The notes below the pieces were generated by a model. That model saw only the letters and a list, made by a program, of their open reading frames with translations. It was not told where the DNA came from and did not search any database. A stretch of DNA of 64,000 bases, from the NCBI RefSeq assembly GCF_001999245.1, contig NZ_CP019630.1:1240001-1304000 (forward strand), in the 5' to 3' direction. Source of the DNA: Roseibium algicola. GTDB lineage: Bacteria > Pseudomonadota > Alphaproteobacteria > Rhizobiales > Stappiaceae. A program made the translations under genes and the position numbers. Positions 2,743 to 28,135 of the stretch are shown here, in pieces (within the stretch, counting starts at the first letter, position 1; every line of letters starts with the position of its first letter).

Positions 2743-3093
2743 TTAAGCGAGTGCCGCGATGACGATGATCTCGACCTTGTATTCCGGGGCTGCCAGTTTG
2801 GCTTCACCGGTAGCGCGTGCCGGCGGGTTTGCCGGATCGACCCAGGCGTCCCAGACCTTGTTCATCTCGGCAAAGTCCTTCATGTCGTCCATCCAGATAG
2901 TGGTCTGGAGAATGCGGCTCTTGTTGCTGCCAGCCTGCTCCAGAAGGGCATCGATGCGCTCCAGGATCGTCTGTGTCTGGTTGGTAACGGTGTCGCCTGG
3001 ATTGCCGACCTGACCGGCAAGATAGACGAGACCGCCGTGGATAACAGCCTGGCTCATGCGCGGGCCAACTTCCAGCCGTTTGATGTCGGACAT
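2743..3093 (-). CDS. RidA family enamine/imine deaminase
   Basis: A 116-residue single-domain protein of the RidA/YjgF/UK114 family. It shows the typical beginning (VIHGGLVYLAGQVG), the central ILERIDALLEQAG helix and the closing KVEIIVIAALA strand. RidA proteins hydrolyse reactive enamines and imines released by PLP enzymes and amino acid oxidases. It is the last gene of the ten-gene operon, 36 bp after the D-arginine dehydrogenase-like gene, whose direct product would be an imine. That linkage suggests it drains that intermediate. The canonical Arg near residue 105 of archetypal RidA is not obvious, so it may belong to a sister Rid subfamily. Confidence 0.9.
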   Translation of the reverse strand: MSDIKRLEVGPRMSQAVIHGGLVYLAGQVGNPGDTVTNQTQTILERIDALLEQAGSNKSRILQTTIWMDDMKDFAEMNKVWDAWVDPANPPARATGEAKLAAPEYKVEIIVIAALA

Positions 3094-3129
3094 GATTGAA
3101 TTCCTTCTTGTCTTGAAAGAGACGCCCGC

Positions 3130-4230
3130 TCAGAACAAGCGGGCGGGATCGAGAGCAGCCACTACCTTCTCGGGCAGTTCGCTCGGACGCTTGAGACAAA
3201 GATCCGCAACGAGCCGGGAGAGCGCTGGGGCCGTTTGTACGCCGTAGCCGCCCTGACCGGCAAGCCAGAAAAACCCTTCCGCATCCGGTGCAAATCCAAC
3301 CACAGGCGTGCGGTCCGCAACGAAGCTGCGCAGGCCTGCCCAATTCCGCTCGACGCGCGTGACGGGCATCGTCACGGCCTGCTCGAACCGGTGCAGACCT
3401 TCAGCCAGAACCATGTCATCTGCCCAGGCATCGTGCGGCTCAACCGGGTCTTCATCGGCAGGCGAAACCATGAACTTGCCGGCATCCGGCTTGGCATACC
3501 ATTGCTCCGACGCGCTGGCGACGAGCGGCCATTTCGTGACATCGATACCATCTGGCGGCGGCACGATGGCCGCCGAGCGGCGCATGGGCACCAGGCCGAC
3601 CTTGCGAACGCCTGCCAGACCCGCGATCTGATCCGCCCAGGCCCCGGCTGCATTGATGAGGACCGGCGCTTCGAAGGCCCCCTTGGGCGTCTCGACACGC
3701 CACTGCCCGCCGCTTCTGAGAATGCGCTGCGCGGGCGCTTCCGTGACGAACCGCGCCCCGGCCTTTCGTGCAAGCCGGGCAAAGCCCTGCAACAATCTGT
3801 CGACGTCGATATCCTGTGCGTCCTGCTCGATGGCAGCAGCGGCAATCGTTTCCTTGCGAAGCAGTGGAAACAGGGCGACAGCTTCTTCCGCCGTCAGGAC
3901 TTCCATGCCGTCCGCACCCTCAAGATATGTGCGGAATGCCTCCAGTTCGTCCTCCGTCGCGATGAGCATTTCACCACGGGGCGACAGCAGGCTTTCCTCC
4001 GATATCCCTTCCGGGTTCTTCAGAACCGGCTCCGAAGCTGCATTCAAGGCCCGTAAGGTGGCATTGCCGTAGTTGCGGATGAAGATGGCGGCGGAGCGAC
4101 CGGTCGCGTGTCGGCCAAGCGCATCTTCCATTTCCAGCACGGTGACCTTTGCGTCCGGTGCAAGCCGTGCCGCGGCCCCGGTGCCGGCTATGCCGCCGCC
4201 GATGATCAGAAAATCCGATGTCTCGATCAT
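3130..4230 (-). CDS. FAD-dependent D-amino acid dehydrogenase, D-arginine dehydrogenase-like
   Basis: A 366-residue DAO-family flavoenzyme with the FAD motif IIGGGIAGTGAAARL at residues 9-23. The segments GRHATGRSAA, LINAAGAWADQIAGLAGV, WAGLRSFVADRTPVVGF and FFWLAGQGGYGVQT resemble, as I recall them, those of Pseudomonas DauA, which oxidises D-arginine and other basic D-amino acids to the imino acid. The electron acceptor is probably a quinone or carrier. The start overlaps the deacetylase stop by 4 bp (ATGA). RidA follows directly, fitting an imine product. The substrate here is inferred and may be another basic amine. Confidence 0.8.
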   Translation of the reverse strand: MIETSDFLIIGGGIAGTGAAARLAPDAKVTVLEMEDALGRHATGRSAAIFIRNYGNATLRALNAASEPVLKNPEGISEESLLSPRGEMLIATEDELEAFRTYLEGADGMEVLTAEEAVALFPLLRKETIAAAAIEQDAQDIDVDRLLQGFARLARKAGARFVTEAPAQRILRSGGQWRVETPKGAFEAPVLINAAGAWADQIAGLAGVRKVGLVPMRRSAAIVPPPDGIDVTKWPLVASASEQWYAKPDAGKFMVSPADEDPVEPHDAWADDMVLAEGLHRFEQAVTMPVTRVERNWAGLRSFVADRTPVVGFAPDAEGFFWLAGQGGYGVQTAPALSRLVADLCLKRPSELPEKVVAALDPARLF

Positions 4231-5249
4231 GCGTCCTGGAACCCTTTCAGGAAACTGCTGAGGTTCTGGCCGAGTTCTTCCGACAGGTAACCGCCTTCCT
4301 GCACGAACAGCACCGGCAGGCCGAGCTTCGCGATGGCGGCACCAATCCGTCCGAACCCGGGTGTGGTGATGGCGAGCCCCTTGAGAGGATCTTTTTCATA
4401 AGCATCGAGCCCCAGGGCAACAACCAGAATATCGGTACCGAATGCCCGAATGTGGTCGAAGGCCGTTTCCAGGGGTTTCAGGTACTCGTCATCCCCGGTG
4501 CCGCGTGCCAGGGGCAGGTTGAGATTACAGCCCCGTCCTGCGCCCTCGCCGCGCTCATGGCCGTGGCCCCAGAAGAACGGATAGAACCGCACCGGATCGG
4601 CATGCAGCGAAACGGTGAGAACGTCACCGCGCTCATAGAAGATGCCTTGCGTGCCATTGCCGTGGTGGACGTCGATGTCGAGGATCGCCGGACGCTTGCC
4701 TGCCTTCAGAAGCCTTTCGGCCGCAATGCCGGAGTTGTTGAGAAAACAGAAGCCGCCCGCCAGATCGGCGAATGCATGGTGACCGGGAGGGCGCGACAGC
4801 ACATAGGCGGCCTGTTCCCCGGCCGCCATTAAGTCCGCGCCGTGGACCGCACTTTGGGCAGACCAATAGGCCGCTTCCCAGGTACCGGCTGCGATTGGAC
4901 AACTGGTATCGGCCTGATGGAACCCGGCCTGACCGACTGCGGAGCGCGGATAACTTGCCGTGCGCCGGTCCGGATGAATGTTCGGAATGACCTCGTCGGA
5001 TGCTCCCTCGATCCGGCTCCAGCGTTCATGGATGGTCTGAAGAAAAACGAGGTATTCCGCAGAGTGGAGAGCCGCAATCGGGCCGAGGCCATGATCTTCC
5101 GGCGCTTCGAAGCGGCACCCTGCTTCCTTGGCACCTTCGGTCAGGACCTCGATGCGCTTCGGCTGTTCCGGATTGGCCAGCCTGGTGCCGTTCGCCATGA
5201 AATGCTTGGGATCGTGCACCCATTGGCGGTCGTCAAAAATGGCTTTCAT
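4227..5249 (-). CDS. Histone deacetylase-family amidohydrolase, acetylpolyamine amidohydrolase-like
   Basis: A 340-residue arginase/deacetylase-fold enzyme. The catalytic His pair is in RPPGHH (157-158). Zinc ligands are D193 and H195 (DIDVHHGNG) and D282 (GLDAYEKDP). The catalytic Tyr is Y321 (EGGY). All sit about two residues from the positions I recall for Mycoplana ramosa acetylpolyamine amidohydrolase, and the length is nearly identical. This supports deacetylation of N-acetylated polyamines or similar amines in the cytoplasm. It overlaps both neighbours by 4 bp. A GNAT acetyltransferase gene lies immediately upstream, an unusual pairing of opposite activities. Confidence 0.88.
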   Translation of the reverse strand: MKAIFDDRQWVHDPKHFMANGTRLANPEQPKRIEVLTEGAKEAGCRFEAPEDHGLGPIAALHSAEYLVFLQTIHERWSRIEGASDEVIPNIHPDRRTASYPRSAVGQAGFHQADTSCPIAAGTWEAAYWSAQSAVHGADLMAAGEQAAYVLSRPPGHHAFADLAGGFCFLNNSGIAAERLLKAGKRPAILDIDVHHGNGTQGIFYERGDVLTVSLHADPVRFYPFFWGHGHERGEGAGRGCNLNLPLARGTGDDEYLKPLETAFDHIRAFGTDILVVALGLDAYEKDPLKGLAITTPGFGRIGAAIAKLGLPVLFVQEGGYLSEELGQNLSSFLKGFQDA

Positions 5250-5734
5250 GAGCGGTCCCTCAATTTGTCGAGTGCCGGTGCGCGCAGATCGAAGACGGTT
5301 TCGCCTTCCCGAGGCGCAAAACCGAGCCGTTCATAGAAACGGCGTGCATCCGGATTGTCGTGATAAACGGCGAGCTTCAGAAAGATCGGCGTCCAGCTAT
5401 CAGGCGCTAGATCCAGACTGGCGGCAAGCAGGCGCTGGCCCAGCCCTTCACCGCGCGCTTCTCCATCGACCCAAAGATCGGAAACATAGAGACCGGTGCC
5501 ACCACGCGTCGTCGAAAAGACAGGCGAGGCCTGCAACACGCCGAGCGTTCGGTCGTCAGACGGCCGGATCGCTAGCAGCGCGAAGAAGGCGGGAGTTTCC
5601 GAGAAACCGTGGCGGATCACATCATCAAGACTGGCGACGTGAGTGTCGCCCATATCGGCCGAAAGCTGGAGCAGCGCTGCGTGAAGCCTTTCGGCATCAG
5701 CTCGTTCAGCCCGCCTGATCGTTATGTTGCTCAT
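5246..5734 (-). CDS. GNAT family N-acetyltransferase
   Basis: A 162-residue GNAT-fold protein. The acetyl-CoA binding segment GEARGEGLGQRLLAA (motif A, R/Q-x-x-G-x-G/A) is near residues 93-107, and the family ending NPDARRFYERLGFAPREGE is near 128-146. It is translationally coupled to the deacetylase gene downstream (4-bp overlap) and starts 2 bp after the BKACE stop. The acceptor substrate is unknown; in this operon an amine such as a polyamine or diamino acid is plausible. Confidence 0.88.
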   Translation of the reverse strand: MSNITIRRAERADAERLHAALLQLSADMGDTHVASLDDVIRHGFSETPAFFALLAIRPSDDRTLGVLQASPVFSTTRGGTGLYVSDLWVDGEARGEGLGQRLLAASLDLAPDSWTPIFLKLAVYHDNPDARRFYERLGFAPREGETVFDLRAPALDKLRDRS

Positions 5735-5736
5735 GA

Positions 5737-6666
5737 TCAGAAGGCCGTCTCGCCGGCCCCTTTGAGGCCCAGCATCTGCCGGGCTTCTTCCGGTGTTGCG
5801 ACCGTTCGCCCGAGTTCCTCGACAATCTTGCGGATCTTGGTGACCTGCTCCGCGTTGGAGCGGGCCAGCTCACCCTTGGCGATGTAAAGATTGTCCTCCA
5901 GCCCGACACGGACGTGCCCGCCCATGCTGGCAGCAATGGTGGCGAAAGGGATCTGCTGTCGGCCCGCCGCAAGAACGGAGAAGATATAGTCGTCGCCGAA
6001 AAGCTTGTCCGCCATCCGCTTCATGTGCTGCAGGTTTTCCGGGTCCGCACCGATACCGCCCAGAACGCCGAAGACGAACTGGATGAAGTACGGCGGCTTG
6101 ACGAGCCCCCGGTCGGCGAAGTGGCGCAGCATGTAAAGATGCCCGACGTCGTAGCATTCGAACTCGAAACGCGCACCGCGCTGCTGGCCCATCTGTGTCA
6201 GCACGAATTCGATATCCCGCGGTGTGTTCTTGAAGACGAGATCATCCGTACCGCGCAGGAAAGGCTGCTCCCAGTCATGCACCCACGCGTCGTAACGGTC
6301 GGCCAGCGGATAGAGCGCAAAGTTCATTGTGCCCATGTTGAGTGAGCACATTTCCGGCTCGGCCTTCAGCGGACCGGCAAGCCTGTCCTCCAGGCTCATG
6401 ATGGCGCTGCCGCCGGTGGACAGGTTGAGCACCGCGCCGCAGCCCGCCTTGATCTCCGAAAGGAAGGCCATGAAGTCGGCCTCCCTCGCCGACGGCTGGC
6501 CGGTTTCCGGATTTCGGGCATGAAGATGCAGGATTGCGGCGCCCGCCTCGGCAGCGCCTATCGCCTGGCCTGCAATCTCGGCAGGCGTCACCGGCAAGTG
6601 AGGCGACATGGTGGGTGTATGAATGGAGCCCGTGACGGCACAGGTGATGATGATCTTGTCTGTCAT
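5737..6666 (-). CDS. Beta-keto acid cleavage enzyme (BKACE, DUF849)
   Basis: A 309-residue protein of the 3-keto-5-aminohexanoate cleavage (Kce) family. BKACE enzymes condense a beta-keto acid with acetyl-CoA and split it into acetoacetate plus a new CoA ester. The Zn-binding HLHAR motif gives H47 and H49, and the late acidic residue is E257 (VGLEDNL). The ATG at 6666 begins MTDKIIITCAVTGS, the usual family start; an upstream extension to 6762 overlaps the aminotransferase and is rejected. It lies 10 bp after the aminotransferase, whose keto product is the likely BKACE substrate. The side chain handled by this member is not known. Confidence 0.9.
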   Translation of the reverse strand: MTDKIIITCAVTGSIHTPTMSPHLPVTPAEIAGQAIGAAEAGAAILHLHARNPETGQPSAREADFMAFLSEIKAGCGAVLNLSTGGSAIMSLEDRLAGPLKAEPEMCSLNMGTMNFALYPLADRYDAWVHDWEQPFLRGTDDLVFKNTPRDIEFVLTQMGQQRGARFEFECYDVGHLYMLRHFADRGLVKPPYFIQFVFGVLGGIGADPENLQHMKRMADKLFGDDYIFSVLAAGRQQIPFATIAASMGGHVRVGLEDNLYIAKGELARSNAEQVTKIRKIVEELGRTVATPEEARQMLGLKGAGETAF

Positions 6667-6676
6667 GTCTTGAATG

Positions 6677-8032
6677 TCAGCTGGCTCTGGCCTGTTGCTG
6701 CGAAATCCTGTCGAGAAACTGGCGGAGAGAAAGGTCGAGACCTTCGATGATCTCGGCAACATGATCCGGTGTCGAGATCATGGGAGGCGCAATCAGGAAG
6801 TGGTCGCCGCTGTAGCCGCCCCGCGTCCGGCGGGAATAGATGATAAGGCCATTCTCATAAGCAATATCGACCAGTTCGTTGAAGGCGTTCAGTTCCTTTG
6901 CGAGTGGTCTCAGGCTTGCACGGTCCTCGACCAGTTCGAAGGCCAGCAACAACCCTTCGCCGCGTACGTCGCCGATGATCGAATAGCGGTCCATCAGCTT
7001 CTTCAGTTCGCTCTTCAGGAGCGCCCCTGTTTCAGCCGCGTTCTGGCACAGGTTTTCCCGCTCGATCTCGTCCAGCACCGCCAGACCGGCAGAGCAGGCA
7101 AGCGGGTTGCCGGCATATGTGAAACCATGCAGGAAACCGCCATTATCAAGCACGTTGGTGACGATGTCCTTATGCGCAATCATGGCGCCCAGAGGCGCAT
7201 AACCAGCAGCAAAGCCTTTGGAGATCACCAGAATATCCGGATCGACATTCCAGTGTTCACCGGCGAAGAACTTTCCGGTCCTCCCGCCACCGGTCATGAC
7301 CTCGTCATGGATCAGCAGGACGCCGTAACGCGTGCAGATCTCGCGAATGCGTTGCATGTACCCCTTCGGCGGCACGAGCGCGCCGGTGGAGGCGCCACCG
7401 ATCGGCTCGACAATAAAGGCCAGGATCGTTTCCGGGCCTTCGGACAGGATCTTCGCCTCCAGCATGTCGGCGTAGTGTCTGCCCGTTGCCTCGTCGTCCG
7501 GGTCCAGTCCGTCGAGATAGGCGCGCGGTGCCGGGATCTTCGGCATCGGCCGCATCATGGGGTCGAACGGCGCAGTAAGGGGTGCATAGCCTGTCAGGGC
7601 CAGAGCGCCGAGCGTGCAGCCGTGATAGCTCGGTTCGCGCGAGATGATCTTGTAACGCTGCGCCTGGCCGATCGCGATGGCGTTCTGGCGGGCCAGCTTG
7701 ATGGCGCTCTCCACCGCTTCCGACCCGCCGGAAACGAAGAAGACCTTTTCCAGCCCCTCGGGCGCCAGTGCGGCGGTCCTGGCGGCCAGCAGTTCCGCAG
7801 GCTCTGTCTCGAAATGGAGGCGGTAACCGAAGGTGGACTTGTCCATCTGCTTGCGCATTGCCTCCAGCACGCGCGGGTTGGAATGGCCGATGTTGCAGAC
7901 CATCGCCCCGGACGAACCGTCGAGATAGCGCTTGCCGTCGACGTCCCACATGTAGACGCCGCGCGCCTGGTCCAGAACAGGCCGGCGCTGACGAGACTGA
8001 TAGAACAGATGAGAAGTTTGCGGACGGCTCAT
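6677..8032 (-). CDS. Class III (omega-amino acid) PLP aminotransferase
   Basis: A 451-residue fold-type I transaminase. Phosphate binding is at FVSGGSEAVESAIKLAR (99-115). The cofactor Asp lies in LLIHDEVMTGGGRTG (D243) and the Schiff-base Lys is K272 in VISKGFAAGYAPLGA. Class III members move the amino group from omega- or beta-amino acids or diamines to pyruvate or 2-oxoglutarate. Its start overlaps the ATPase stop by 4 bp (ATGA), and BKACE follows 10 bp later. The order suggests transamination of an imported amine or beta-amino acid to the keto acid used by BKACE. Confidence 0.92.
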   Translation of the reverse strand: MSRPQTSHLFYQSRQRRPVLDQARGVYMWDVDGKRYLDGSSGAMVCNIGHSNPRVLEAMRKQMDKSTFGYRLHFETEPAELLAARTAALAPEGLEKVFFVSGGSEAVESAIKLARQNAIAIGQAQRYKIISREPSYHGCTLGALALTGYAPLTAPFDPMMRPMPKIPAPRAYLDGLDPDDEATGRHYADMLEAKILSEGPETILAFIVEPIGGASTGALVPPKGYMQRIREICTRYGVLLIHDEVMTGGGRTGKFFAGEHWNVDPDILVISKGFAAGYAPLGAMIAHKDIVTNVLDNGGFLHGFTYAGNPLACSAGLAVLDEIERENLCQNAAETGALLKSELKKLMDRYSIIGDVRGEGLLLAFELVEDRASLRPLAKELNAFNELVDIAYENGLIIYSRRTRGGYSGDHFLIAPPMISTPDHVAEIIEGLDLSLRQFLDRISQQQARAS

Positions 8033-9114
8033 GAAGCAGCTCCAGGCAGGGCTGCGCAGTCGCGCGGACGGAAGCGAACGGAGACGTCCGAGCCTTCCTC
8101 GAAAGGGTGCTGATCGATCATGTTGATCACCTGAAGTTGCTGGTCGCCGACACGAACGAAATACCGTGCCGCCTGACCCTGGTAGTCCACCGCCTCGACC
8201 TTGCCGTCGAGCGCGATGCGATCATCCGCCGGAGCGGATTTTTCCGCCAGCAGAAGTTTTTCAGCCCGGATAACAAGCTGTGCAGGACCGGCCTGTGAAA
8301 GATTGGGGGCCTTTTCCCTCGGCACATTGATCTTGCCGAAGTAAGGCAGTTCAAGGGACAGCTCCTGCCCGTTCACGGCCTGGCACGTCGCTGGCAGAAT
8401 GTTGGAGATGCCCAGGAAGCGCGAAACGAACTCGCTTGCAGGCGTGTTGTAAACCTCCTGCGGCGTGCCGATCTGCTCCACCCGTCCGTTGGACATCACC
8501 ACGATCCGATCGGACATGGCGAGCGCTTCGGACTGGTCATGGGTAACGAAAACGGTTGTGATGCCGATCTGATGCTGGATGCGCTTCAGCTCGACGCGCA
8601 TGTCCTCGCGCAGGTTGGCGTCGAGTGCGGACAGCGGTTCGTCCAGAAGCAGCACGTCCGGCTCTATGACGATGGCCCGCGCCAGCGCGATACGCTGCTG
8701 CTGACCACCGGAAAGCTGCTTGGGATAACGGTCGCTGACATGGGGAAGCTGAACCAGTTCCAGCGCATCGCGTACTTTCTTTTCGGCATCCGCCTTCGGG
8801 ATGTCGCGGTATTTCAGGCCGAAAGCCACATTTTCGGCAATCGTCTTGTGGGGAAAGAGCGCGTAGTTCTGGAAGACGAGACCAAGGTTTCGCCTGTGGA
8901 TCGGCACATCGTTGATGCGTTGACCCTTGATGGTGATGTCGCCTTCGGAAGGGTCGATGAGACCGGCGATCATCCTGAGGGTGGTCGTCTTGCCACATCC
9001 GGAAGGGCCGAGCAGCGTTACGAAGCTTCCGTCCGGGATGTCCATGCTCATCCGGTGAACGGCGGTAAAGCCACCGAACTTCTTGACGATATTGTTGAGG
9101 GAAACCGCGCTCAC
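8029..9114 (-). CDS. ABC transporter ATP-binding protein, PotA-like
   Basis: A 361-residue ATPase of the spermidine/putrescine (MOI) import class. Walker A GPSGCGKTT is at 36-44, followed by the Q-loop FQNYALFP, signature LSGGQQQR, Walker B LLLDEPLSALD and the switch His in VFVTHD. A C-terminal TOBE/OB regulatory domain follows. A GTG start at 9114 is chosen because GGAG lies 7 bases upstream and the protein then begins MSAVSLNNIVKKFGG; a longer TTG start runs into the hairpin at 9145-9171. It powers import with the two permeases and binding protein encoded upstream. Confidence 0.92.
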   Translation of the reverse strand: MSAVSLNNIVKKFGGFTAVHRMSMDIPDGSFVTLLGPSGCGKTTTLRMIAGLIDPSEGDITIKGQRINDVPIHRRNLGLVFQNYALFPHKTIAENVAFGLKYRDIPKADAEKKVRDALELVQLPHVSDRYPKQLSGGQQQRIALARAIVIEPDVLLLDEPLSALDANLREDMRVELKRIQHQIGITTVFVTHDQSEALAMSDRIVVMSNGRVEQIGTPQEVYNTPASEFVSRFLGISNILPATCQAVNGQELSLELPYFGKINVPREKAPNLSQAGPAQLVIRAEKLLLAEKSAPADDRIALDGKVEAVDYQGQAARYFVRVGDQQLQVINMIDQHPFEEGSDVSVRFRPRDCAALPGAAS

Positions 9115-9144
9115 GCAAATTCTCCAGGTCCTGGGGAGAAGACG

Positions 9145-9171
9145 ACCTTCCGGCAGCAACTGCCGGAAGGT
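9145..9171 (-). other. Intra-operon hairpin between binding protein and ATPase genes
   Basis: A 12-bp perfect stem (ACCTTCCGGCAG, 9145-9156, with its complement 9160-9171) closes a 3-base loop. It lies in the 86-bp gap after the solute-binding protein gene and has no U-run on the transcribed strand. Such hairpins often protect the upstream message from 3' decay so that the binding protein is made in excess over the ATPase. That role is inferred from position. Confidence 0.6.
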
Positions 9172-9200
9172 GCTGGGTCAGTGATGGGGCCGTACCGGGC

Positions 9201-10340
9201 TTAGTACCCCTTCTGGATCCGCCCGAACATCTTGGACCAGTCCTGTTCGTGGCTGTTCCAGTATTCCGGATTGGCGAAGGTCAGACCGTCAAGCGTGCCC
9301 GTCGGATCGAACGCCGGAAGGGTCGGGATCTTCTTGCCGAGATCGACCTTTGTCGGGTCGAGCGCCGGCGGGTAGTTCTGGCCTTCGGCGACCGCGATCG
9401 AGGTTTCGGGCGCCAGCATGAAGTTCAGGAGTTCCTCGCAGGCTTCCATGGGCGAGCCCTTGATCACGAACAGGCATTCCTGCCAGCCGAAACCGTTGGG
9501 CGGATCGATATAGCCGATGTCATGGCCCTGCTCCTGAAGGGCGTAGATCCGGCCGGACCAGCCCTCGGTAACGTAAATTTCCTCTTCAGCCAGAAGGCTC
9601 ATCAGTTCCGCGCCGGACTGCCAGTATTTCAACAGCAGATCGCGGTTGGTGCGCACAGCCTGCCAGACGGCATCCATATCCGTTGCGTTGTTCGGATCCT
9701 GGTCGGTCTGCAACGATGCGTACCAGATGCGGGTGCGCCAGTCGGACCAGCCGCCGATCTTGCCCTTGTAGGCTTCGTCGATCAGGAGCTTTGCACCCTT
9801 TTCCTTGGCTTCGTCGTCGGAGATGTATTTCCGGTTATAGGCAATGCCTGTGGTGCCGTAGTCATAAGGCACGCAGGACAGCTTGCCGTCGGTGACACCG
9901 CGGAAGACGTCGGTGAGTTTCGGGATCACGTATTTCAGGTTCGGGATGTTGTCCTCGTTGAGCGTCGAGTTCAGCCCGAGATTGACATAGCGTGCGTAGT
10001 CGAAGACGCCTGACAGGTGCGCGATATTATATTCGCCTTCCTGGCTGGCCTTGACGCGCGACAGATATTCATCACCGCCGCCGAATGTTCCATCGACAAC
10101 CTTGATGCCGGTCTTTTCGGTGTAGGGATCGAAGGCATATTTGCGGAAGGCTTCCGAGACGACCCCGCCCCAGCCGTCGAAGCGGACTTCCTCCGTCGCA
10201 GCCATGGCATGGCGGGCAAAGGGTGTCTGCACACCGTAGGCGAGACCGGCTGCCCCGATCAGGCCAAGGAACTTGCGGCGGTCGAGATCACCGTTGAGAT
10301 AGCGTTCGCGCAGACGCTCATAGCGTTTGGTATTGTCCAT
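9201..10340 (-). CDS. Polyamine-type ABC substrate-binding protein with Tat-like signal
   Basis: A 379-residue PotD/PotF-class periplasmic binding protein. The N-terminus holds a twin-arginine signal, DRRKFLGLIGAAG (RR at 21-22), with a likely cleavage after HAMA near residue 47. Typical family segments follow (GYIDPPNGFGWQECLFV and CEELLNFMLAPE). The ATG at 10340 is preferred over a GTG 12 bases upstream that has no ribosome-binding site. It captures the imported compound in the periplasm. Tat export of a soluble binding protein implies folding before export; polyamines or amino-acid derivatives are the usual ligands of the class. Confidence 0.9.
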   Translation of the reverse strand: MDNTKRYERLRERYLNGDLDRRKFLGLIGAAGLAYGVQTPFARHAMAATEEVRFDGWGGVVSEAFRKYAFDPYTEKTGIKVVDGTFGGGDEYLSRVKASQEGEYNIAHLSGVFDYARYVNLGLNSTLNEDNIPNLKYVIPKLTDVFRGVTDGKLSCVPYDYGTTGIAYNRKYISDDEAKEKGAKLLIDEAYKGKIGGWSDWRTRIWYASLQTDQDPNNATDMDAVWQAVRTNRDLLLKYWQSGAELMSLLAEEEIYVTEGWSGRIYALQEQGHDIGYIDPPNGFGWQECLFVIKGSPMEACEELLNFMLAPETSIAVAEGQNYPPALDPTKVDLGKKIPTLPAFDPTGTLDGLTFANPEYWNSHEQDWSKMFGRIQKGY

Positions 10341-10392
10341 CTTGTTTTCCACTCTGGTTCTTGTGTCGGTTTCTTGCTTTGATCGCGCGGTT

Positions 10393-11178
10393 CTAACCGC
10401 CGCGCTGCATGGCCATCCGCCGGGCGATTGCCAGCCCGAGAAGCGGCAGGCCGACGGTCAGGAAAATCATCACGGTGCCGAGCGCGTTGATCTCCGGGGA
10501 GATGGAATTGCGCAGCATGGCAAAGATCTGGGTGGGCACGGTTTCGACCCCGCCCGGCTTCCAGAACAAGGTGCCGGTGATGTCGTCGAAGCTGATGGTG
10601 AAGGCGAACAGCATGCCGGCGAAGACGGCAGGTGCCAGCAGCGGCAGCGTGATCTGGAAAAAAGCCTGCACGGGACTTGCGCCAAGGCTGAGTGCGGCTT
10701 CCTCGTAATCGCGGCGGATGCCGACAAGGCGGGCCTGCACCACAAGGATGACAAAGGGCAGCGTGAAGATGACGTGCCCCATCAGGAGCAGGAAAAAGCT
10801 CTTGTTGATCGACAGGAAATTCAGGAACAGCAACAAGGCGACCGCCAGCACCACCTCAGGCACCAGGATCGGCGCAATCAGGAGGGTGGAGATCAGGTTG
10901 CGGCCGGGCACCTCGTAGCGCACCAGGGCAAGACTTGCCAGAACGCCAAGTGTCGTGGAGATCAGCGCGGTCAGGGCACCAAGGACAATCGAGGTCTGGA
11001 ATGCCCGCAGGATGGCGTCGTTTCCGGCCAGTTCGACGAACCAGCGGAACGAGAAGCCGGTCATCGGAAAACTGCCGAACTGGCTGGCGTTGAAGCTGAG
11101 CAGAACCACCACCGCGACCGGCAGGAACATGAACAGATAGACCAGCAGCGTGTAGGCCCGGATCAGTTGCCACCCCAT
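10393..11178 (-). CDS. ABC transporter permease, PotC-like
   Basis: A 261-residue inner-membrane permease beginning MGWQLIRAYTLLVYLF, with about six membrane segments. The cytoplasmic EAA loop DYEEAALSLGASPVQAFFQITLPLL docks on the ATPase. The start codon overlaps the stop of the upstream permease by one base (TGATG), which fixes the start and couples the two proteins. A longer upstream frame is only a shadow of the first permease gene. Confidence 0.92.
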   Translation of the reverse strand: MGWQLIRAYTLLVYLFMFLPVAVVVLLSFNASQFGSFPMTGFSFRWFVELAGNDAILRAFQTSIVLGALTALISTTLGVLASLALVRYEVPGRNLISTLLIAPILVPEVVLAVALLLFLNFLSINKSFFLLLMGHVIFTLPFVILVVQARLVGIRRDYEEAALSLGASPVQAFFQITLPLLAPAVFAGMLFAFTISFDDITGTLFWKPGGVETVPTQIFAMLRNSISPEINALGTVMIFLTVGLPLLGLAIARRMAMQRGG

Positions 11179-12044
11179 CAGCCAAGCCCCTTCATCAGTT
11201 GGCCCATGCCGAGATAGTGGTTGTAGATCAGCACCAGGGCGCCGAGAACGGCGAGCAGCATGAGCGAGAGCGCAGAGCCGAGCGGCCAGTTGAGCTGTGT
11301 GATGATCGCCTCGAAAACGAGGTTGGCAAACATGGCGTCCGTCGGCCCCCCCAGAACCAACGGTGTGATGTAGGTGCCCGCACTCAGCACGAAACAGAGC
11401 AGGCCTCCCGCGGCGAGCCCCGGCAGGGACAGCGGCAAGGTGACTTCCCGGAATGCCTGCCAGCGGGTGGAGCCGAGGGAACACGCCGCGTCCTCCAGCG
11501 AAACATCGATCCCTTCCAGCGCCACATAGACGTTCAACACCATGAAGGGCAGCAGGAAATGCACGAGGCCGAGGATCACGGTCGGCTCGTTGTAGAGCAT
11601 CTGGACCGGTTCGGAGACGATGCCGAGGTTGAGCAGGGCCCAGTTGACCGCACCGGATACACCCAGGATGTTGATCCAGGACATGGTCCGAATGATGTAG
11701 CTGATCCAGAAAGGCAGCATCAGCAACAGCAGCAGCAAGGCCTTGTTGCCACGTGAACGGGCAATGAAATAAGCCGCCGGATAGCCCATGACGGCGCAGG
11801 CAAATGTGGTGATGGCGGCAATCCGCAGGGTACCGAGCAGGATGTCCCGATAGAAGGGATCGGTCAGCGCCTCGTTCCAGTTGTCCAGGTAAAAGCCCGC
11901 CTGGTCAGCGCCCGTGGCCGTGCGCAGCCAGAATGAATAGACGACAATAAAAACAAGCGGCACGAAAAGCAGCAGCCCCACTGCTGTGAGCGCAGGGGAA
12001 AGGAGTATCCATGGCTGTCGTTTTTCCCGCGCCTCGACGCTCAT
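11178..12044 (-). CDS. ABC transporter permease, PotB-like
   Basis: A 288-residue inner-membrane permease with six predicted membrane spans and the EAA-type loop SLEDAACSLGSTRWQAFREVTLPL. The ATG at 12044 (MSVEAREKRQPWILLSPAL) is preferred to a TTG 30 bases upstream. It is the first gene of the ten-gene operon, starting 108 bp from the divergent LysR gene, so the operon promoter must lie in that gap. Confidence 0.9.
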   Translation of the reverse strand: MSVEAREKRQPWILLSPALTAVGLLLFVPLVFIVVYSFWLRTATGADQAGFYLDNWNEALTDPFYRDILLGTLRIAAITTFACAVMGYPAAYFIARSRGNKALLLLLLMLPFWISYIIRTMSWINILGVSGAVNWALLNLGIVSEPVQMLYNEPTVILGLVHFLLPFMVLNVYVALEGIDVSLEDAACSLGSTRWQAFREVTLPLSLPGLAAGGLLCFVLSAGTYITPLVLGGPTDAMFANLVFEAIITQLNWPLGSALSLMLLAVLGALVLIYNHYLGMGQLMKGLG

Positions 12045-12152
12045 GCGCTCAAACCCTGCCAGATGCCTTGTCAAAATTGCTTGACTTCAGCGTCGCAGGC
12101 AGGTGTTCATTGATCAAATAGATAATGAAAATTATAACTATAGATCTGATCA
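12045..12152. promoter_or_regulatory. Divergent promoter region with two inverted repeats
   Basis: The gap between the operon and the LysR gene is AT-rich and holds TTGATCAA (12110-12117), a second TGATCAA (12147-12153) abutting the regulator ATG, and between them a perfect ATAAT-GAAA-ATTAT inverted repeat (12122-12135). Spaced dyads in a divergent region are the usual architecture of LysR autoregulation and target activation. Assignment of the actual binding site is inference. Confidence 0.5.
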
Positions 12153-13121
12153 ATGGCTGATGGATTACGCCCGATCCAGGCAGAGCGGCTTGCCCGCGAA
12201 CTGGACTGGAACTTGCTGAGAACCTTCATCGTCCTGGCCCAGTCCGGAAGTGTGACACGGGCGGCAGACAGACTGCGCCTCAAGCAGCCCACCGTTTCCA
12301 GCGCACTGAAGCGGCTGGAGGACCGGTTGGGACGCAAGCTCATCAATCGCAAGCCGGGTCAGTTCGAGCTGACGGAAGCCGGCGAATTGCTGTTGAAGGA
12401 AGCCATCGAGATCCAGGGTTCCATCCTGAGGCTCGGGACCCTGATGCGTGACGTCACCGACGAGATCCGCGGCCACGTCGAAATCGCCATGGCCAGTCAC
12501 GTGGTTTCGCCGCTCTATGACGACACCCTGCGCGAGTTTCACGAACGGCACCCGGCCGCAACACTCACCATCAACGTTTCGGCCAGCAAGGACGCACTGG
12601 AAGCCGTCACGTCCCGCCGGGCTTCGCTCGCCGTCTGCCTGGTGCGCGAACGCAATCCAAAGCTTGAGTACCTGCGCCTTTTCCGGGAGTTTTTCGGCCT
12701 CTTCTGCGGTCCGCCTCACCCGCTTTACGGCAAGACCAACCTGACAAAGGCCGATCTTGCCGGTCAGTCCGCTGTCAGCTTCGTGACCGACCGGCTGGAA
12801 GACGCCCTTCGTCCGGTAACGCTGATGCGGGCGGAAGCGGATCTTGAAGACCGGATTGTCGGCACATCGGCCAACCTGGAAGAAGTCCGGCGCATGATCA
12901 TTGCCGGACTGGGCATCGGCCCCTTGCCTGTCCACGTTGCCAAACGGGATATTCGAGAGGGTCTTTTGTGGCAACTCCCACCCTATGACGCGCTGCCGGA
13001 GATCGACGTTCATGTGGTCTGGAACCCCAAGGCGAAACTGAACCGCGCCGAACAGGCTCTTCTGGACATGCTGCTGGAAAAGATAAGGCTGACGCCGATA
13101 GAGGAGCGGACCTATCGCTGA
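12153..13121 (+). CDS. LysR family transcriptional regulator
   Basis: A 322-residue LTTR. The winged HTH is near residues 18-77 (WNLLRTFIVLAQSGSVTRAADRL and KQPTVSSALKRLEDRLG), followed by a periplasmic-binding-protein-like effector domain. It is encoded divergently from the amine uptake and catabolic operon and is its most likely controller, with the imported compound or a breakdown product as co-inducer. The ATG overlaps one TGATCAA half of a dyad, which would allow autorepression. Confidence 0.93.
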   Translation: MADGLRPIQAERLARELDWNLLRTFIVLAQSGSVTRAADRLRLKQPTVSSALKRLEDRLGRKLINRKPGQFELTEAGELLLKEAIEIQGSILRLGTLMRDVTDEIRGHVEIAMASHVVSPLYDDTLREFHERHPAATLTINVSASKDALEAVTSRRASLAVCLVRERNPKLEYLRLFREFFGLFCGPPHPLYGKTNLTKADLAGQSAVSFVTDRLEDALRPVTLMRAEADLEDRIVGTSANLEEVRRMIIAGLGIGPLPVHVAKRDIREGLLWQLPPYDALPEIDVHVVWNPKAKLNRAEQALLDMLLEKIRLTPIEERTYR

Positions 13122-13283: not shown

Positions 13284-14366
13284 ATGAATGGTGTGCGGTT
13301 CGCCTGGAAAATGCTCTTCCTTGCGCTGGTGACAGTGGTCCTTATTCAGTCGCCTGCCAATGCATCGGAAGAATTCTTTGAAGGCGGCTGGACCCTGCAA
13401 CGGGATGCATCTTCCCTGCGGTTCCAGTCGGTCAAGAACCTGACCATTGTGGAATCCAGTTCTTTCGCGGAATTTGAAGGCGGCATTGACGATACCGGCA
13501 ACGCCAGCGTCCGCATCTTTCTTGACTCGATCGATACGAAAATCGACCTCAGAAACGTGCGCATGCGGTTTCTCTTCTTCGAAACGTTCGAGTTCCCTGA
13601 AGCCGTCATCTCGACGAAAATTGATGCGTCAGCCCTGGCTGACCTTCCGACCGTCAAACGCAAGACGATCCCGCTTGCCTTCAATCTCGACCTTCACGGC
13701 GTCTCAAAACCGTTCGAGGCCAATGTTACGGTGACCTATCTGAGCGAAGACCTGGTTGCCGTTTCGAGCACCGCGCCGGTGTCTGTCGCAGCTTCCGACT
13801 TCGCCCTCGGTGGCGGTATCAAGAAGCTCGAGGAAGCCGCCGGCGTCGTCATCGTGCCATCGGCAACGGTCTCCTTCGATTTCGTCTTCGCCCGCAAATC
13901 GGGCGAAACGGACGAGGACGATGCCGACGACCAGACCCAGCAGGCGGCCGCTTCTCAGCCAGCTGCAAGCACCGCGCTTGAACCGGAAGGCAACCTGGAC
14001 AACGAGGCTTGCACCGGCCGGTTCGAGATCCTGTCCCGCACGGACAACATTTACTTTCCAAGCGGCAGTTCGCAGCTTGATCCGCGAAGCCAGCCACTCC
14101 TGAACAGCCTCGTTGACATCATCATGAGATGCCCGGAGCTGACCATTGAAGTCGGAGGACATACCGACAGTGATGGCAGCGATACATCAAACCTGGCTCT
14201 GTCCGAACGCCGGGCGGGCGCGGTCAAGCAGTATCTAGTCTCCAAGAACGTTCCCGACAGCAGGATCAGGAGTGTTGGGTATGGCGAAAGCCGTCCCGTA
14301 GCTCCGAACACCTCCGCGGAAGGAAAGCAACGCAACCGGCGGATAGAGTTTGTCGTTGTCGAATAG
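13284..14366 (+). CDS. Secreted YceI-like / OmpA-like fusion protein
   Basis: A 360-residue exported protein. The signal peptide spans residues 1-28 (MLFLALVTVVLIQSPANA core). Residues about 35-205 look like a YceI lipocalin-fold domain: SLRFQSVKN start, the conserved LHGVSKPFEANVTVTYL and an end strand near ATVSFDFVF. A low-complexity acidic/Ala linker (about 208-232) joins it to an OmpA peptidoglycan-binding domain (about 245-360) with GGHTDSDG, NLALSERRA and RNRRIEFV. YceI domains bind isoprenoid-type lipids; OmpA domains bind diaminopimelate in the wall. The ATG follows GGTAGGAAG. The caspase-like gene starts 7 bp downstream, indicating an operon. The domain combination is unusual. Confidence 0.82.
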   Translation: MNGVRFAWKMLFLALVTVVLIQSPANASEEFFEGGWTLQRDASSLRFQSVKNLTIVESSSFAEFEGGIDDTGNASVRIFLDSIDTKIDLRNVRMRFLFFETFEFPEAVISTKIDASALADLPTVKRKTIPLAFNLDLHGVSKPFEANVTVTYLSEDLVAVSSTAPVSVAASDFALGGGIKKLEEAAGVVIVPSATVSFDFVFARKSGETDEDDADDQTQQAAASQPAASTALEPEGNLDNEACTGRFEILSRTDNIYFPSGSSQLDPRSQPLLNSLVDIIMRCPELTIEVGGHTDSDGSDTSNLALSERRAGAVKQYLVSKNVPDSRIRSVGYGESRPVAPNTSAEGKQRNRRIEFVVVE

Positions 14367-15926: not shown

Positions 15927-16583
15927 TTACTGCGATTTCGAGATCACCGCATAGTCGGAGTAGCCGGCGTAAAGGCGATGGAAAGAGGCAACTGCGCCGA
16001 TGCTGGCAGCCAGGGCTTTCAACTCGCCTTCCAGGTCAGCTCGTGGAGATACGTGGAAGGATTTGAGCCAGGCAAACAGGACGCGCTTGAACCAGCCAGG
16101 CAAGCGTTCCAGCTGACCGAAATCGACCACGTGGATCCGCCCGTCCGGCGCCAGCCGCGCGGCACCTGCCGCCAATGCTTCGCGCCAGATCGGGATCATG
16201 GACAGCGTATAGGAATAAAAGACGCGGTCGAAAGCCGGAACACCAAAGCCTTCCGTCGCCGCCGGGTTTGCGGCATCGCCTTCCACAAGCGTGATACGGT
16301 CTGTCAGGCCTGCCTTGTCGATGTTCTTCTGGGCGGTTTCCAGCATGTTCCTGGAAATGTCGAGACCGTAGAAACGAACGTCCGGATAGGCTTTTGCAGC
16401 CGCAATCAGGTTCCGGCCGGTGCCGCAGCCGAGTTCCAGCACGACGCCGTCTCGCGGCGGCTGAAGCTCTCGGATCAGCTTGTCGCGCCCGAGCAGGTAG
16501 AACTTGCGGGTCAGGTCGTAAAAATGGCGCTGATGGCGATAGACGGCATCCATCAGCCGGGCTGTTTCGACGGCTTGGGTCAT
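15927..16583 (-). CDS. btaB: BtaB: betaine-lipid N-methyltransferase
   Basis: A 218-residue class I SAM methyltransferase with motif I VLELGCGTGRN at 48-58 and FYGLDIS following. Its place directly after btaA (32 bp) identifies it as the enzyme that trimethylates diacylglyceryl-homoserine to the betaine lipid DGTS. It acts at the inner face of the cytoplasmic membrane. The neighbouring caspase gene is convergent, with about 47 bp between the stops. Confidence 0.87.
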   Translation of the reverse strand: MTQAVETARLMDAVYRHQRHFYDLTRKFYLLGRDKLIRELQPPRDGVVLELGCGTGRNLIAAAKAYPDVRFYGLDISRNMLETAQKNIDKAGLTDRITLVEGDAANPAATEGFGVPAFDRVFYSYTLSMIPIWREALAAGAARLAPDGRIHVVDFGQLERLPGWFKRVLFAWLKSFHVSPRADLEGELKALAASIGAVASFHRLYAGYSDYAVISKSQ

Positions 16584-16615
16584 GACGCTATGTTTCCGTA
16601 CGCAGGACGGCCAGC

Positions 16616-17878
16616 TTAGCCGTTGAACACATAAAGATGGAAGCCACCATAAATGGAGGAGCGGTCCTGACGGCCAAGCTCCAGGCTTTCCTCTTCCTCG
16701 TAGGTCCAGCGGTTCAGGATCTGGTCGGATACGCGGCCCGGCAGAAGGGTCGGTTCGGCAGCGGTGCGGAAGATGACCCGGGCACCTGGAAGCGCGGTCC
16801 GCGTTATCTCGGTCCAGAGTGCATTGAGCTGATGGTCTGTCATCCAGTCCTGGGCATCTAGCAGCACATAGGCGTCAAGCGTATTGTCCTGAACCGACTG
16901 AAGGTGTTCGGTAAAATTGCGATTGAGCACACGGACCCGGCCCGCACGCTGACGGATTTCCTCGAAATGCTCGCGCTTTAGGTATGGCGGCAAAGGCCCG
17001 GCCGGACCGGTGCTGTCCTGACTGCTTGGAGCATAGCCACGGCCGAAGGCCTGCCAGGCGAAATAGTTGTCCTGCATGGAGAAGTCGCAAGCGAGTTTCT
17101 CAAGCCGCTGACGCAGAACCGCGGACATGTCGCGTTCGGCACTGGCCGATACCAGGGCGTCATACTGTGCCGGCGGAATGCCGAGGCCGTAGAGCGACAT
17201 CTTCTTGGACGTAGCCCAGCGCACCAGACGCTTGTCGAACAGCGGTGCCAGTGCGGTATCGAAGAAAGTGCGCTGTTCTTCCAGCGACCTGGTCTTGACC
17301 ATGTGCTTCGGGTCGATGCCATAGAGCCTTGCGACCAGGTGTCCCGCGCCGATGCAATAGCCCAGCAGACCGTGATGATAGAGGTCGCGCGAGAACAGCG
17401 TGATCCTCTTGCGGCCCCAATTGGCCATGTCACGGCCTTCCCAGTAGGCGACCGTTTCAGGATCGAGCTTGTCTTTCAGGAACCGCTGATAGGCGGCAAC
17501 ATTGGCCTTTTCGTCTGCTTCGCCGAAGAACCTGTAGAAGATCTCGTAATTCGGCAGATGCTTGGCTGCCGCCAGTTTCAGCCGGCCCAGCGCCACATGT
17601 GCACGGTTGAGGTCCACCGCAGTGATCTCGGCCGGATTTGCCGTCAGGTAGGACATGACGTTGCAGCCGCCCGACGCGATGGTGATCATTCGGGAGTCCG
17701 GCGTCAGGCGAAGAGCCCTCATGTCCACATCCGGATCTTCCCAGATCTGCGGATAGACAAGGCCCTTGAAGGCGAATGTGAACAGGCGCTCGAGAAAACC
17801 GTCCTTGGAGGTGGCTTCGGAACGGTGAACCGCATTCTTGAGACGTTTCTTCGATGCGGTGAGCGTGCTCTGCGCCAT
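16616..17878 (-). CDS. btaA: BtaA: SAM:diacylglycerol 3-amino-3-carboxypropyl transferase
   Basis: A 420-residue DUF3419 protein with the family signatures YPQIWEDPDVDMRAL, TIASGGCNVMSYL and AVDLNRAHVALGRLKL. It transfers the aminocarboxypropyl group of SAM to diacylglycerol, the first step of betaine lipid synthesis. These phosphorus-free lipids replace phospholipids when phosphate is scarce. The ATG at 17878 has CGGGAG 6-7 bases upstream; a TTG start 27 bases earlier is less likely. btaB follows. No convincing Pho box was found upstream. Confidence 0.92.
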   Translation of the reverse strand: MAQSTLTASKKRLKNAVHRSEATSKDGFLERLFTFAFKGLVYPQIWEDPDVDMRALRLTPDSRMITIASGGCNVMSYLTANPAEITAVDLNRAHVALGRLKLAAAKHLPNYEIFYRFFGEADEKANVAAYQRFLKDKLDPETVAYWEGRDMANWGRKRITLFSRDLYHHGLLGYCIGAGHLVARLYGIDPKHMVKTRSLEEQRTFFDTALAPLFDKRLVRWATSKKMSLYGLGIPPAQYDALVSASAERDMSAVLRQRLEKLACDFSMQDNYFAWQAFGRGYAPSSQDSTGPAGPLPPYLKREHFEEIRQRAGRVRVLNRNFTEHLQSVQDNTLDAYVLLDAQDWMTDHQLNALWTEITRTALPGARVIFRTAAEPTLLPGRVSDQILNRWTYEEEESLELGRQDRSSIYGGFHLYVFNG

Positions 17879-28043: not shown

Positions 28044-28135
28044 CTATGGGGCTCCTGGATCAGCAGGCTTTCGATCTAACCTTGCAAGGCCAAAAAGCTG
28101 ATCGATTCTATATTGTTAGAGCTTATTAGCCGCAT

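Follow-up and report, generated by a model that had tools for sequence, protein, structure and literature searches.

The aerobic breakdown of L-beta-lysine was reportedly worked out by the Barker group in Pseudomonas B4, where it is said to proceed by N6-acetylation, transamination, acetyl-CoA cleavage to acetoacetate and deacetylation to 4-aminobutyrate, with a deacetylase that reportedly also cut the thioester. To our knowledge, EC 2.6.1.65, EC 3.5.1.51 and the keto acid cleavage are known only as gene-less activities, and we know of no thioester cleavage by HDAC-type enzymes. The Kce system (route as in PMC3149608) shares with the operon described here the BKACE family and a cleavage that yields acetoacetate and a CoA ester. 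In place of the aminomutase and the diaminohexanoate dehydrogenase, neither of which is among its ten genes, the operon has an acetyltransferase and a deacetylase. BKACE15 of Paracoccus denitrificans (8RIO/8RIP) has the subfamily and catalytic residues of the operon BKACE and takes neutral C5-C6 beta-keto acids, but its context is said (PMC11961710) to be aromatic degradation, unlike the operon's setting.

How does the locus of this marine Roseibium compare? In the window, the whole 64,000-nucleotide stretch of DNA that was analysed, ten packed minus-strand chromosomal genes (2743-12044) face a divergent lysR on the plus strand (Table 1). All ten genes and the divergent lysR are present as the preliminary description had stated, and the families that it had named (importer, aminotransferase, BKACE, GNAT, deacetylase, DauA-like enzyme, RidA) agree with the matches, obtained from Pfam for most and from NCBIfam for the PotA-, PotB- and PotC-like proteins. 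The tight packing that it had reported, with most genes overlapping or less than 60 bp apart, agrees with the spacings except between the ATPase and binding-protein (SBP) genes, where about 86 bp form the only gap in the operon above 60 bp. Four-bp overlaps join DAO to deacetylase, deacetylase to GNAT, and aminotransferase to PotA; GNAT and BKACE lie 2 bp apart, BKACE and aminotransferase 10 bp, and RidA and DAO 36 bp (from ORF ends and likely starts). The SBP/PotC spacing of 40-52 bp and the PotC/PotB overlap of 1-7 both depend on the start codon chosen.

Table 1. Features of the operon and its divergent regulator (positions in the window)
Feature	Position	Strand	Evidence
RidA-family imine deaminase, optional accessory	2743..3093	-	PF01042 99 bits
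DauA-like FAD-dependent amino acid dehydrogenase (DAO family), optional accessory	3130..4230	-	PF01266 190 bits; DauA 306 bits
APAH/HDAC-type zinc deacetylase; proposed 4-acetamidobutyryl-CoA or 4-acetamidobutyrate deacetylase	4227..5249	-	PF00850 231 bits
GNAT acetyltransferase; proposed beta-lysine N6-acetyltransferase	5246..5734	-	PF00583 47 bits
BKACE; proposed 3-keto-6-acetamidohexanoate cleavage enzyme	5737..6666	-	PF05853 371 bits; start ATG at 6666, by gene call
Class III aminotransferase; proposed N6-acetyl-beta-lysine transaminase	6677..8032	-	PF00202 344 bits
ABC importer ATPase, PotA type	8029..9114	-	TIGR01187 364 bits, cut-off 355.6; start uncertain, GTG at 9114 used
12-bp GC-rich hairpin, SBP-PotA gap	9145..9171	-	sequence reading and folding
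Periplasmic binding protein (SBP), distant PotD relative	9201..10352	-	PF13416 (SBP_bac_8) 89 bits
ABC importer permease, PotC type	10393..11178	-	NF007047 207 bits, cut-off 326
ABC importer permease, PotB type	11178..12044	-	NF007044 194 bits, cut-off 348
Divergent intergenic region PotB/lysR, presumed control region	12045..12152		sequence reading
Divergent LysR regulator	12153..13121	+	PF03466 109 bits, PF00126 75 bits

We propose, with a probability of roughly 0.56, that the operon imports and degrades beta-lysine and/or its N6-acetyl form by an acetyl-protected route. Families, gene order, conservation, intact catalytic residues and the absence of acids at two sites are observed; from these we infer every substrate and reaction. 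The ABC importer would take up beta-lysine or N6-acetyl-beta-lysine, and GNAT would acetylate the far (N6) amine when it is free, which would block cyclisation of the later keto acid. The class III aminotransferase would then convert N6-acetyl-beta-lysine to 3-keto-6-acetamidohexanoate, which BKACE, with acetyl-CoA, would cleave to acetoacetate and 4-acetamidobutyryl-CoA. Removal of the acetyl group by the APAH-type deacetylase would yield 4-aminobutyrate, the thioester being cut by the same enzyme or another thioesterase, and 4-aminobutyrate and acetoacetate would enter central metabolism. DAO and RidA may open a further, optional way into the route, perhaps for basic amino acids of D or (R) form. 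In favour of the proposal, the host genome encodes three ScoA-type subunits and two SSADHs over cut-off; against it, no GabT passes cut-off there.

All four steps of the Pseudomonas B4 route are matched by the operon at the family level; the importer, LysR, DAO and RidA are extra. The acetyltransferase, aminotransferase, acetyl-CoA-dependent cleavage enzyme and deacetylase of that route occur together in the operon and are conserved together. The earlier statement that no described pathway has this set is thus probably wrong for the core, whose four enzymes appear to match the reported beta-lysine route. The operon probably holds the genes for a biochemically described route, and we know of no report that assigns genes to it. 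A literature search on beta-lysine breakdown and BKACE/Kce gave no genes for the route by title or start of abstract; most subscription papers lay outside that search, and Bastard 2014 or the Kce structure paper may already have proposed this role. The term 6-acetamido-3-oxohexanoate is used in PMC12787813.

Is this gene order more than a local arrangement? A comparison across 80 loci that carry a BKACE related to this one, with genes taken from codon-based ORF calls that miss some (the deacetylase of L090, for example, was found by another comparison), gave an aminotransferase in 59, an APAH deacetylase in 56 and GNAT in 50; a LysR relative is present in 52. The order is more than chance, being found again in several alphaproteobacterial families and in three records from Gammaproteobacteria. 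This conserved synteny backs the earlier view of a single import-and-breakdown operon. In the BKACE tree, the clade containing the window has 54 rows, comprising 47 with aminotransferase and deacetylase, four with aminotransferase only, one with deacetylase only and two with neither. A second sample, which counts against the proposal, had both genes within 1.5 kb of BKACE in only 10 of 29 loci; split by BKACE identity, these were 5/5 at 70% or above and 5/24 at 60-67%. Among the exceptions, L041, L058 and L094 have GNAT with no deacetylase found, L081 lacks both, and L087, L095 and L096 have the deacetylase but no aminotransferase.

The BKACE catalytic HxH, Glu and Tyr are kept in all 60 homologues linked to the aminotransferase and/or the deacetylase; the Glu is presumably catalytic. 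For the Tyr, a catalytic role is given in PMC12871164. The earlier suggestion that a transamination supplies BKACE with its beta-keto acid is the most sensible reading. BKACE scores 504 bits against the NCBIfam model NF053538 (3,5-dioxohexanoate:acetyl-CoA acetone transferase; cut-off 430). Since all ten BKACEs tested pass this model, including those of L100, L117 and L099 with neither aminotransferase nor deacetylase adjoining, we rejected the 3,5-dioxohexanoate label as not specific. Against the Kce model it reaches 255.8 bits, under the cut-off of 382, and the best 120 of 8000 matches in a protein search carry generic names. A pathway of the deoxyribonate type, or one for aromatic side chains, has the context of BKACE15 and a published deoxyribonate precedent for BKACE behind it. 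Deoxyribonate clusters, however, carry an SDR dehydrogenase and, in one species, a lactonase and MFS transporters (PMC6365646), none of which is found among the ten genes, where an aminotransferase and a deacetylase stand instead; we consider such a pathway extremely improbable.

Would the same chemistry act on another acetyl-protected omega-amino beta-amino acid, such as beta-ornithine, 3,5-diaminohexanoate or a beta-arginine-like compound? The family-level evidence fits equally, chain length being unreadable from sequence, and the BKACE subfamily is described as promiscuous in vitro (PMC11961710 and PMC6365646). Against this, N6-acetyl-beta-lysine is already a known natural osmolyte (PMC1224877), and we know of no other such compound with a described route of these steps. 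We regard another beta-amino acid as unlikely. GNAT has a thialysine acetyltransferase as its best solved relative (E 6e-9) and diamine acetyltransferase 2 as its third, which suggests acetylation of a far amine and favours the beta-lysine proposal. Against that proposal, the NCBIfam model for AblB, the beta-lysine N6-acetyltransferase, was not among the seven families that matched GNAT at E values up to 0.001.

The preliminary description had offered an acetylated polyamine, deacetylated first and then degraded. The PotABCD type of the importer agrees with this, as does the naming of the deacetylase's five best solved relatives, all chains called acetylpolyamine hydrolases. Metal and catalytic residues are kept in 55/55 deacetylase homologues, and the fold family and zinc site are those of the acetylpolyamine amidohydrolases 3q9b, 6phr, 3men and 9gkz. 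Nevertheless, none of the 55 has an acidic residue at the sites equivalent to E106 and E117 (3q9b numbering), which we take to be the polyamine-binding acids. Both acids are present in 3q9b and 6phr, whereas 3men and 9gkz resemble the operon deacetylase in lacking them; because these two are also named acetylpolyamine hydrolases, the argument from the site is weakened and not decisive. The two alignable same-genome paralogues have an acid at one site each. Polyamines, moreover, yield no beta-keto acid for BKACE, and a GNAT adjoining the deacetylase would presumably be futile. Because of the missing beta-keto acid and the absence of the two acids, the acetylpolyamine proposal fits poorly, and we judge it very unlikely.

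The importers bear on the same question. Among the importer proteins, only the ATPase passes the cut-off of an NCBIfam polyamine model, and the binding protein scores 42 bits against the PotD model (cut-off 582). Over the BKACE loci scored for it, the importer is of Pot type in 41 plus the window, of PAAT type in 11 and not called in eight, with three changes on the tree while the enzyme core stays constant. Two unrelated importer types thus serve the same core, and the 11 PAAT-type loci speak against a polyamine substrate. In L048, the one PAAT locus whose binding protein was typed, the nearest models are those for lysine/arginine/ornithine and cystine, with scores below cut-off. Both the switch of importer and this match count in favour of the beta-lysine proposal.

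Another substrate proposed earlier was a basic D-amino acid; on this reading, DAO and RidA would make a keto acid for the rest of the operon. DauA is the best solved relative of the DAO protein, and the equivalent of its E87 is kept in 27/28 DAO homologues, with the carboxylate Arg residues and the Tyr gate in 28/28; we take E87 to anchor the cationic side chain and the Arg residues the carboxylate. The DauA H48 position, to which we presume a functional role, is I or V in 28/28, and the lid residues are R52-N53 in the operon protein versus V-A in DauA. The Tyr gate is described in PMC9996824. According to PMC5619798, the DauA reaction runs faster in vitro when a Rid2 or Rid3 protein is present, while RidA- and Rid1-subfamily proteins are inactive on the DauA product. 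In contrast to DauA, the operon DAO is an accessory: it occurs in 31 of the 80 loci and RidA in 21, and of the 11 loci that have the PAAT importer a single one has DAO, on the opposite strand. A basic D-amino acid is therefore unlikely to be the defining substrate, and its product would be an alpha-keto acid; we give this possibility very little weight.

Where would beta-lysine come from? We rejected an endogenous source through lysine 2,3-aminomutase, for which no match was found beside the operon or elsewhere in the window's genome, and which few carriers of the operon have. TIGR00238 is over cut-off in 5/43 operon-bearing genomes versus 6/7 without the operon; L061 and L073 have further matches under cut-off. 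None of 398 genomes of the phylum passes the stricter AblA cut-off, and no KamA lies within 10 kb of BKACE among the matches listed, as judged by eye, which is a weak negative. The scarcity of the aminomutase also weighs against the beta-lysine proposal. Methanogens and green sulfur bacteria use N6-acetyl-beta-lysine as an osmolyte, and a tentative possibility is that the operon is the missing consumer of this compound, dedicated to its uptake and breakdown in the sea, with GNAT needed only for free beta-lysine. Scored from gap lengths alone, the BKACE-APAH distance is just 32-128 bp in 9/59 loci, which therefore have no GNAT between the two genes and keep the deacetylase, as expected if the imported compound is already acetylated. 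If this were so, genes would be in hand for at least three reactions known as activities alone, and an archaeal compatible solute would feed marine Alphaproteobacteria.

The operon supplies concrete candidate genes for a beta-lysine route known from the bench decades ago. Were the beta-lysine assignment true, genes would be available for EC 2.6.1.65, EC 3.5.1.51 and the keto acid cleavage, and two database names, which make BKACE a dioxohexanoate enzyme and assign the deacetylase to polyamines, would be corrected. What becomes of a beta-amino acid osmolyte in seawater could then be tested with a bacterium that grows in culture, and protection by acetylation, as known for N-acetylornithine, would join the roles of BKACE.

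Transcription signals were also considered. The three promoter-like and nine terminator-like sites show no excess over shuffles and were set aside as a sign of split transcripts within the operon; the divergent intergenic region holds none of the three sigma-70-like matches. The SBP-PotA hairpin has no T run and a fold z of -2.4. A stem of at least nine pairs occurs in this gap in 32/41 relatives (shuffle mean 2.0), as against 0/43 PotC-SBP gaps. Because a T-rich tail follows it in only one of the 32, we rejected it as a terminator despite its conservation; more likely, it follows the binding-protein gene as a stabiliser of the mRNA 3' end.

Past the core, where some genes were typed, no family beyond DAO and RidA is common to many loci. 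A DMFA2_C-type protein is present in six loci, and the beta-lysine assignment accounts neither for it nor for DAO and RidA. A small protein lies nearby in three loci, the L095 copy being typed as a hotdog thioesterase.

The ten minus-strand genes and divergent LysR gene of the preliminary description were confirmed from open reading frames and family matches, and the ten genes form an operon of an ordinary kind, one for import and catabolism (table). All ten genes and LysR recur at 92-99% identity in R. aggregatum IAM 12614, the nearest named relative found, and the chromosome carrying the window is Roseibium-like. What does the operon break down? Seven BKACEs in this genome pass the Pfam cut-off, so the role of the operon BKACE must be read from its context.

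Locations of the features discussed (L-numbers, BKACE loci of relatives)
Location	Strand	Feature
Window 2743-12044	-	Operon, 5' to 3' in transcription: PotB-type permease, PotC-type permease, binding protein (SBP), PotA-type ATPase, class III aminotransferase (AT), BKACE, acetyltransferase (GNAT), HDAC/APAH-type deacetylase (APAH), DauA-like flavoprotein (DAO), RidA
Window 9145-9171		GC-rich hairpin, SBP-PotA gap
Window 12153-13121	+	LysR
Window 13284-14366		YceI-like domain fused to OmpA C-terminal domain
Window 15927-17878		Pair: methyltransferase-like ORF beside DUF3419 protein
Window 16616-17878		DUF3419 protein
Window 26526-30717		Consecutive AMP-binding ligase, malonyl-CoA decarboxylase, TRAP transporter subunit
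L116:13250-14536		ArgE/DapE-type deacylase between DAO and RidA (Thalassospira version)
L079:5281-6864; L085:13045-14673; L095:8338-9981; L096:8341-9984; L112:6967-8604; L115:6937-8583		Protein cluster (527-548 aa) at or close to operon
L095:13214-13624; L096:13094-13504; L115:2512-2871		Small protein cluster near operon

In work on Pseudomonas B4, Barker's group reportedly found that beta-lysine is acetylated on N6 and transaminated to 3-keto-6-acetamidohexanoate, which with acetyl-CoA is said to give 4-acetamidobutyryl-CoA and acetoacetate, deacetylation then yielding 4-aminobutyrate. These steps would call for the operon's four core families, with acetylase, transaminase, acetyl-CoA-dependent cleavage enzyme and deacetylase all matched at family level. 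The earlier claim that no described pathway has this set is probably mistaken for the core: the operon probably serves a route known biochemically, for which no genes are known to have been reported. We put the probability that its substrate is beta-lysine or the acetyl form at roughly 0.56; an acetyl-protected omega-amino beta-amino acid of some kind is predicted with considerably more confidence. N6-acetylation would prevent cyclisation of the 6-amino-3-keto acid, and the uncharged acetamido chain would resemble the neutral C5-C6 beta-keto acids that BKACE15, a Paracoccus denitrificans relative of the same subfamily, takes according to PMC11961710. N6-acetyl-beta-lysine is an osmolyte of methanogens (PMC1224877), and PMC12776343 cites a 2011 paper whose title reports the compound from green sulfur bacteria and from a Bacillus. 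The window's genome encodes three ScoA-type subunits and two SSADHs over cut-off, and no GabT over cut-off.

Several observations weigh against beta-lysine. Lysine 2,3-aminomutase was not found in the window's genome; a TIGR00238 match above the cut-off occurs in 5/43 operon carriers versus 6/7 non-carriers, none of 398 phylum genomes passes the AblA cut-off, and none of the aminomutase matches listed for them lies within 10 kb of a listed BKACE. Beta-lysine would thus have to be imported. Chain length is not readable from sequence, and enzymes of this BKACE subfamily show substrate promiscuity in vitro (PMC11961710 and PMC6365646). The NCBIfam name of the operon BKACE, 3,5-dioxohexanoate:acetyl-CoA acetone transferase, corresponds to an in vitro substrate reported for BKACE15 (PMC11961710); BKACEs from outside the operon also score above that model's cut-off. 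The 527-548 aa cluster of six loci, typed in L095 as DMFA2_C (dimethylformamidase-like), is assigned no step in the route; in L095 and L096 it occupies the position expected for AT and GNAT.

Contigs were scanned with the window BKACE, the best 80 of 586 loci were kept, and codon-based gene calls around them were compared with the window's genes. The same gene order recurs in relatives, as the preliminary description had proposed checking: AT is present at 59/80 loci, APAH at 56, LysR at 52 and GNAT at 50, with the importer at 44 (PotC), 42 (SBP) and 41 (PotB), and DAO (31) and RidA (21) optional. A BKACE tree was built for the window and 76 loci (four short calls dropped); of the 54 rows in the window's clade, 47 have both AT and APAH nearby, four AT only, one APAH only and two neither. 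Carriers of both include Paracoccaceae (17 rows), Roseobacteraceae (12), Stappiaceae (9), Rhizobiaceae (2) and three gammaproteobacterial records; 16 tree rows have neither gene, eight of them Azospirillaceae. A second, independent set of 150 genomes from the order supplied 29 loci outside the window's genome; AT and APAH lay within the 1.5 kb flanks viewed at 5/5 loci with BKACE identity of at least 70% versus 5/24 at 60-67%. The operon thus marks one BKACE subgroup, not the whole subfamily. In-group exceptions comprise L041, L058 and L094 (GNAT present, APAH not found), L081 (neither found) and L087, L095 and L096 (APAH present, AT not found). Azospirillum-type loci (L098, L100, L104-L107, L109, L113, L114) share four other neighbouring gene clusters, a different BKACE context; L100 is titled Roseomonas. 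Next to its operon, L097 (Breoghania) has multiple calls of SBP, PotB and LysR, which may reflect duplication or an assembly artefact.

An imported acetylated polyamine, which had also been proposed, is unlikely. Metal and catalytic residues of the deacetylase are kept in 55/55 homologues, all of which carry V/I/A/T/L/S and A/S, respectively, at the positions equivalent to E106 and E117 in the acetylpolyamine hydrolase 3q9b, presumably its polyamine-recognising residues. Acids occupy both sites in 6phr and neither in 3men and 9gkz, which bear the same enzyme name, so their absence is only suggestive against a polyamine. Among same-genome paralogues, L125 (39% identical) has an acid at the first site and L126 at the second; L127 gave no alignment there. 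HxH, Glu and Tyr of BKACE are kept in 60/60 homologues. Among solved structures, a thialysine acetyltransferase is nearest to GNAT and diamine acetyltransferase 2 ranks third; an NCBIfam profile search gave no match to AblB.

Among 60 operon-type loci and the window, the importer is of Pot type in 42 and PAAT type in 11, with none called in eight, requiring three changes on the BKACE tree. Family typing of a single PAAT binding protein, that of L048, gave lysine/arginine/ornithine and cystine as the closest models, both under cut-off. Since either importer can serve the pathway, a basic or zwitterionic amino acid is pointed to. At 9/59 loci the BKACE-APAH distance is only 32-128 bp, too short for GNAT, and APAH is kept, as would be expected if acetylation precedes import. 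DAO accompanies 26/41 Pot loci, 2/8 without a called importer and 1/11 PAAT loci, there on the other strand; it is an add-on outside the pathway core. Its residues aligned to what we take to be DauA's side-chain anchor and carboxylate binders are kept, and that aligned to H48 is not. The L095 member of the small protein cluster was typed as 4HBT_2, a hotdog thioesterase, and the cluster possibly acts on the CoA ester made by BKACE.

The SBP-PotA gap is the one wide gap in the operon. Stems of at least nine pairs occur there in 32/41 relatives (40 shuffles: mean 2.0, highest 7) and in 0/43 PotC-SBP gaps; their sequences differ and their place is constant. Only 1/32 is followed by a T-rich tail, and the hairpin is probably an mRNA 3' stabiliser letting SBP be made in excess, rather than a terminator, which agrees with a single transcript and is no proof of it.

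Elsewhere in the window, the DUF3419 pair is a candidate betaine-lipid pair, BtaA/BtaB, and the genes from the AMP-binding ligase to the TRAP subunit resemble an operon for taking up and using malonate.
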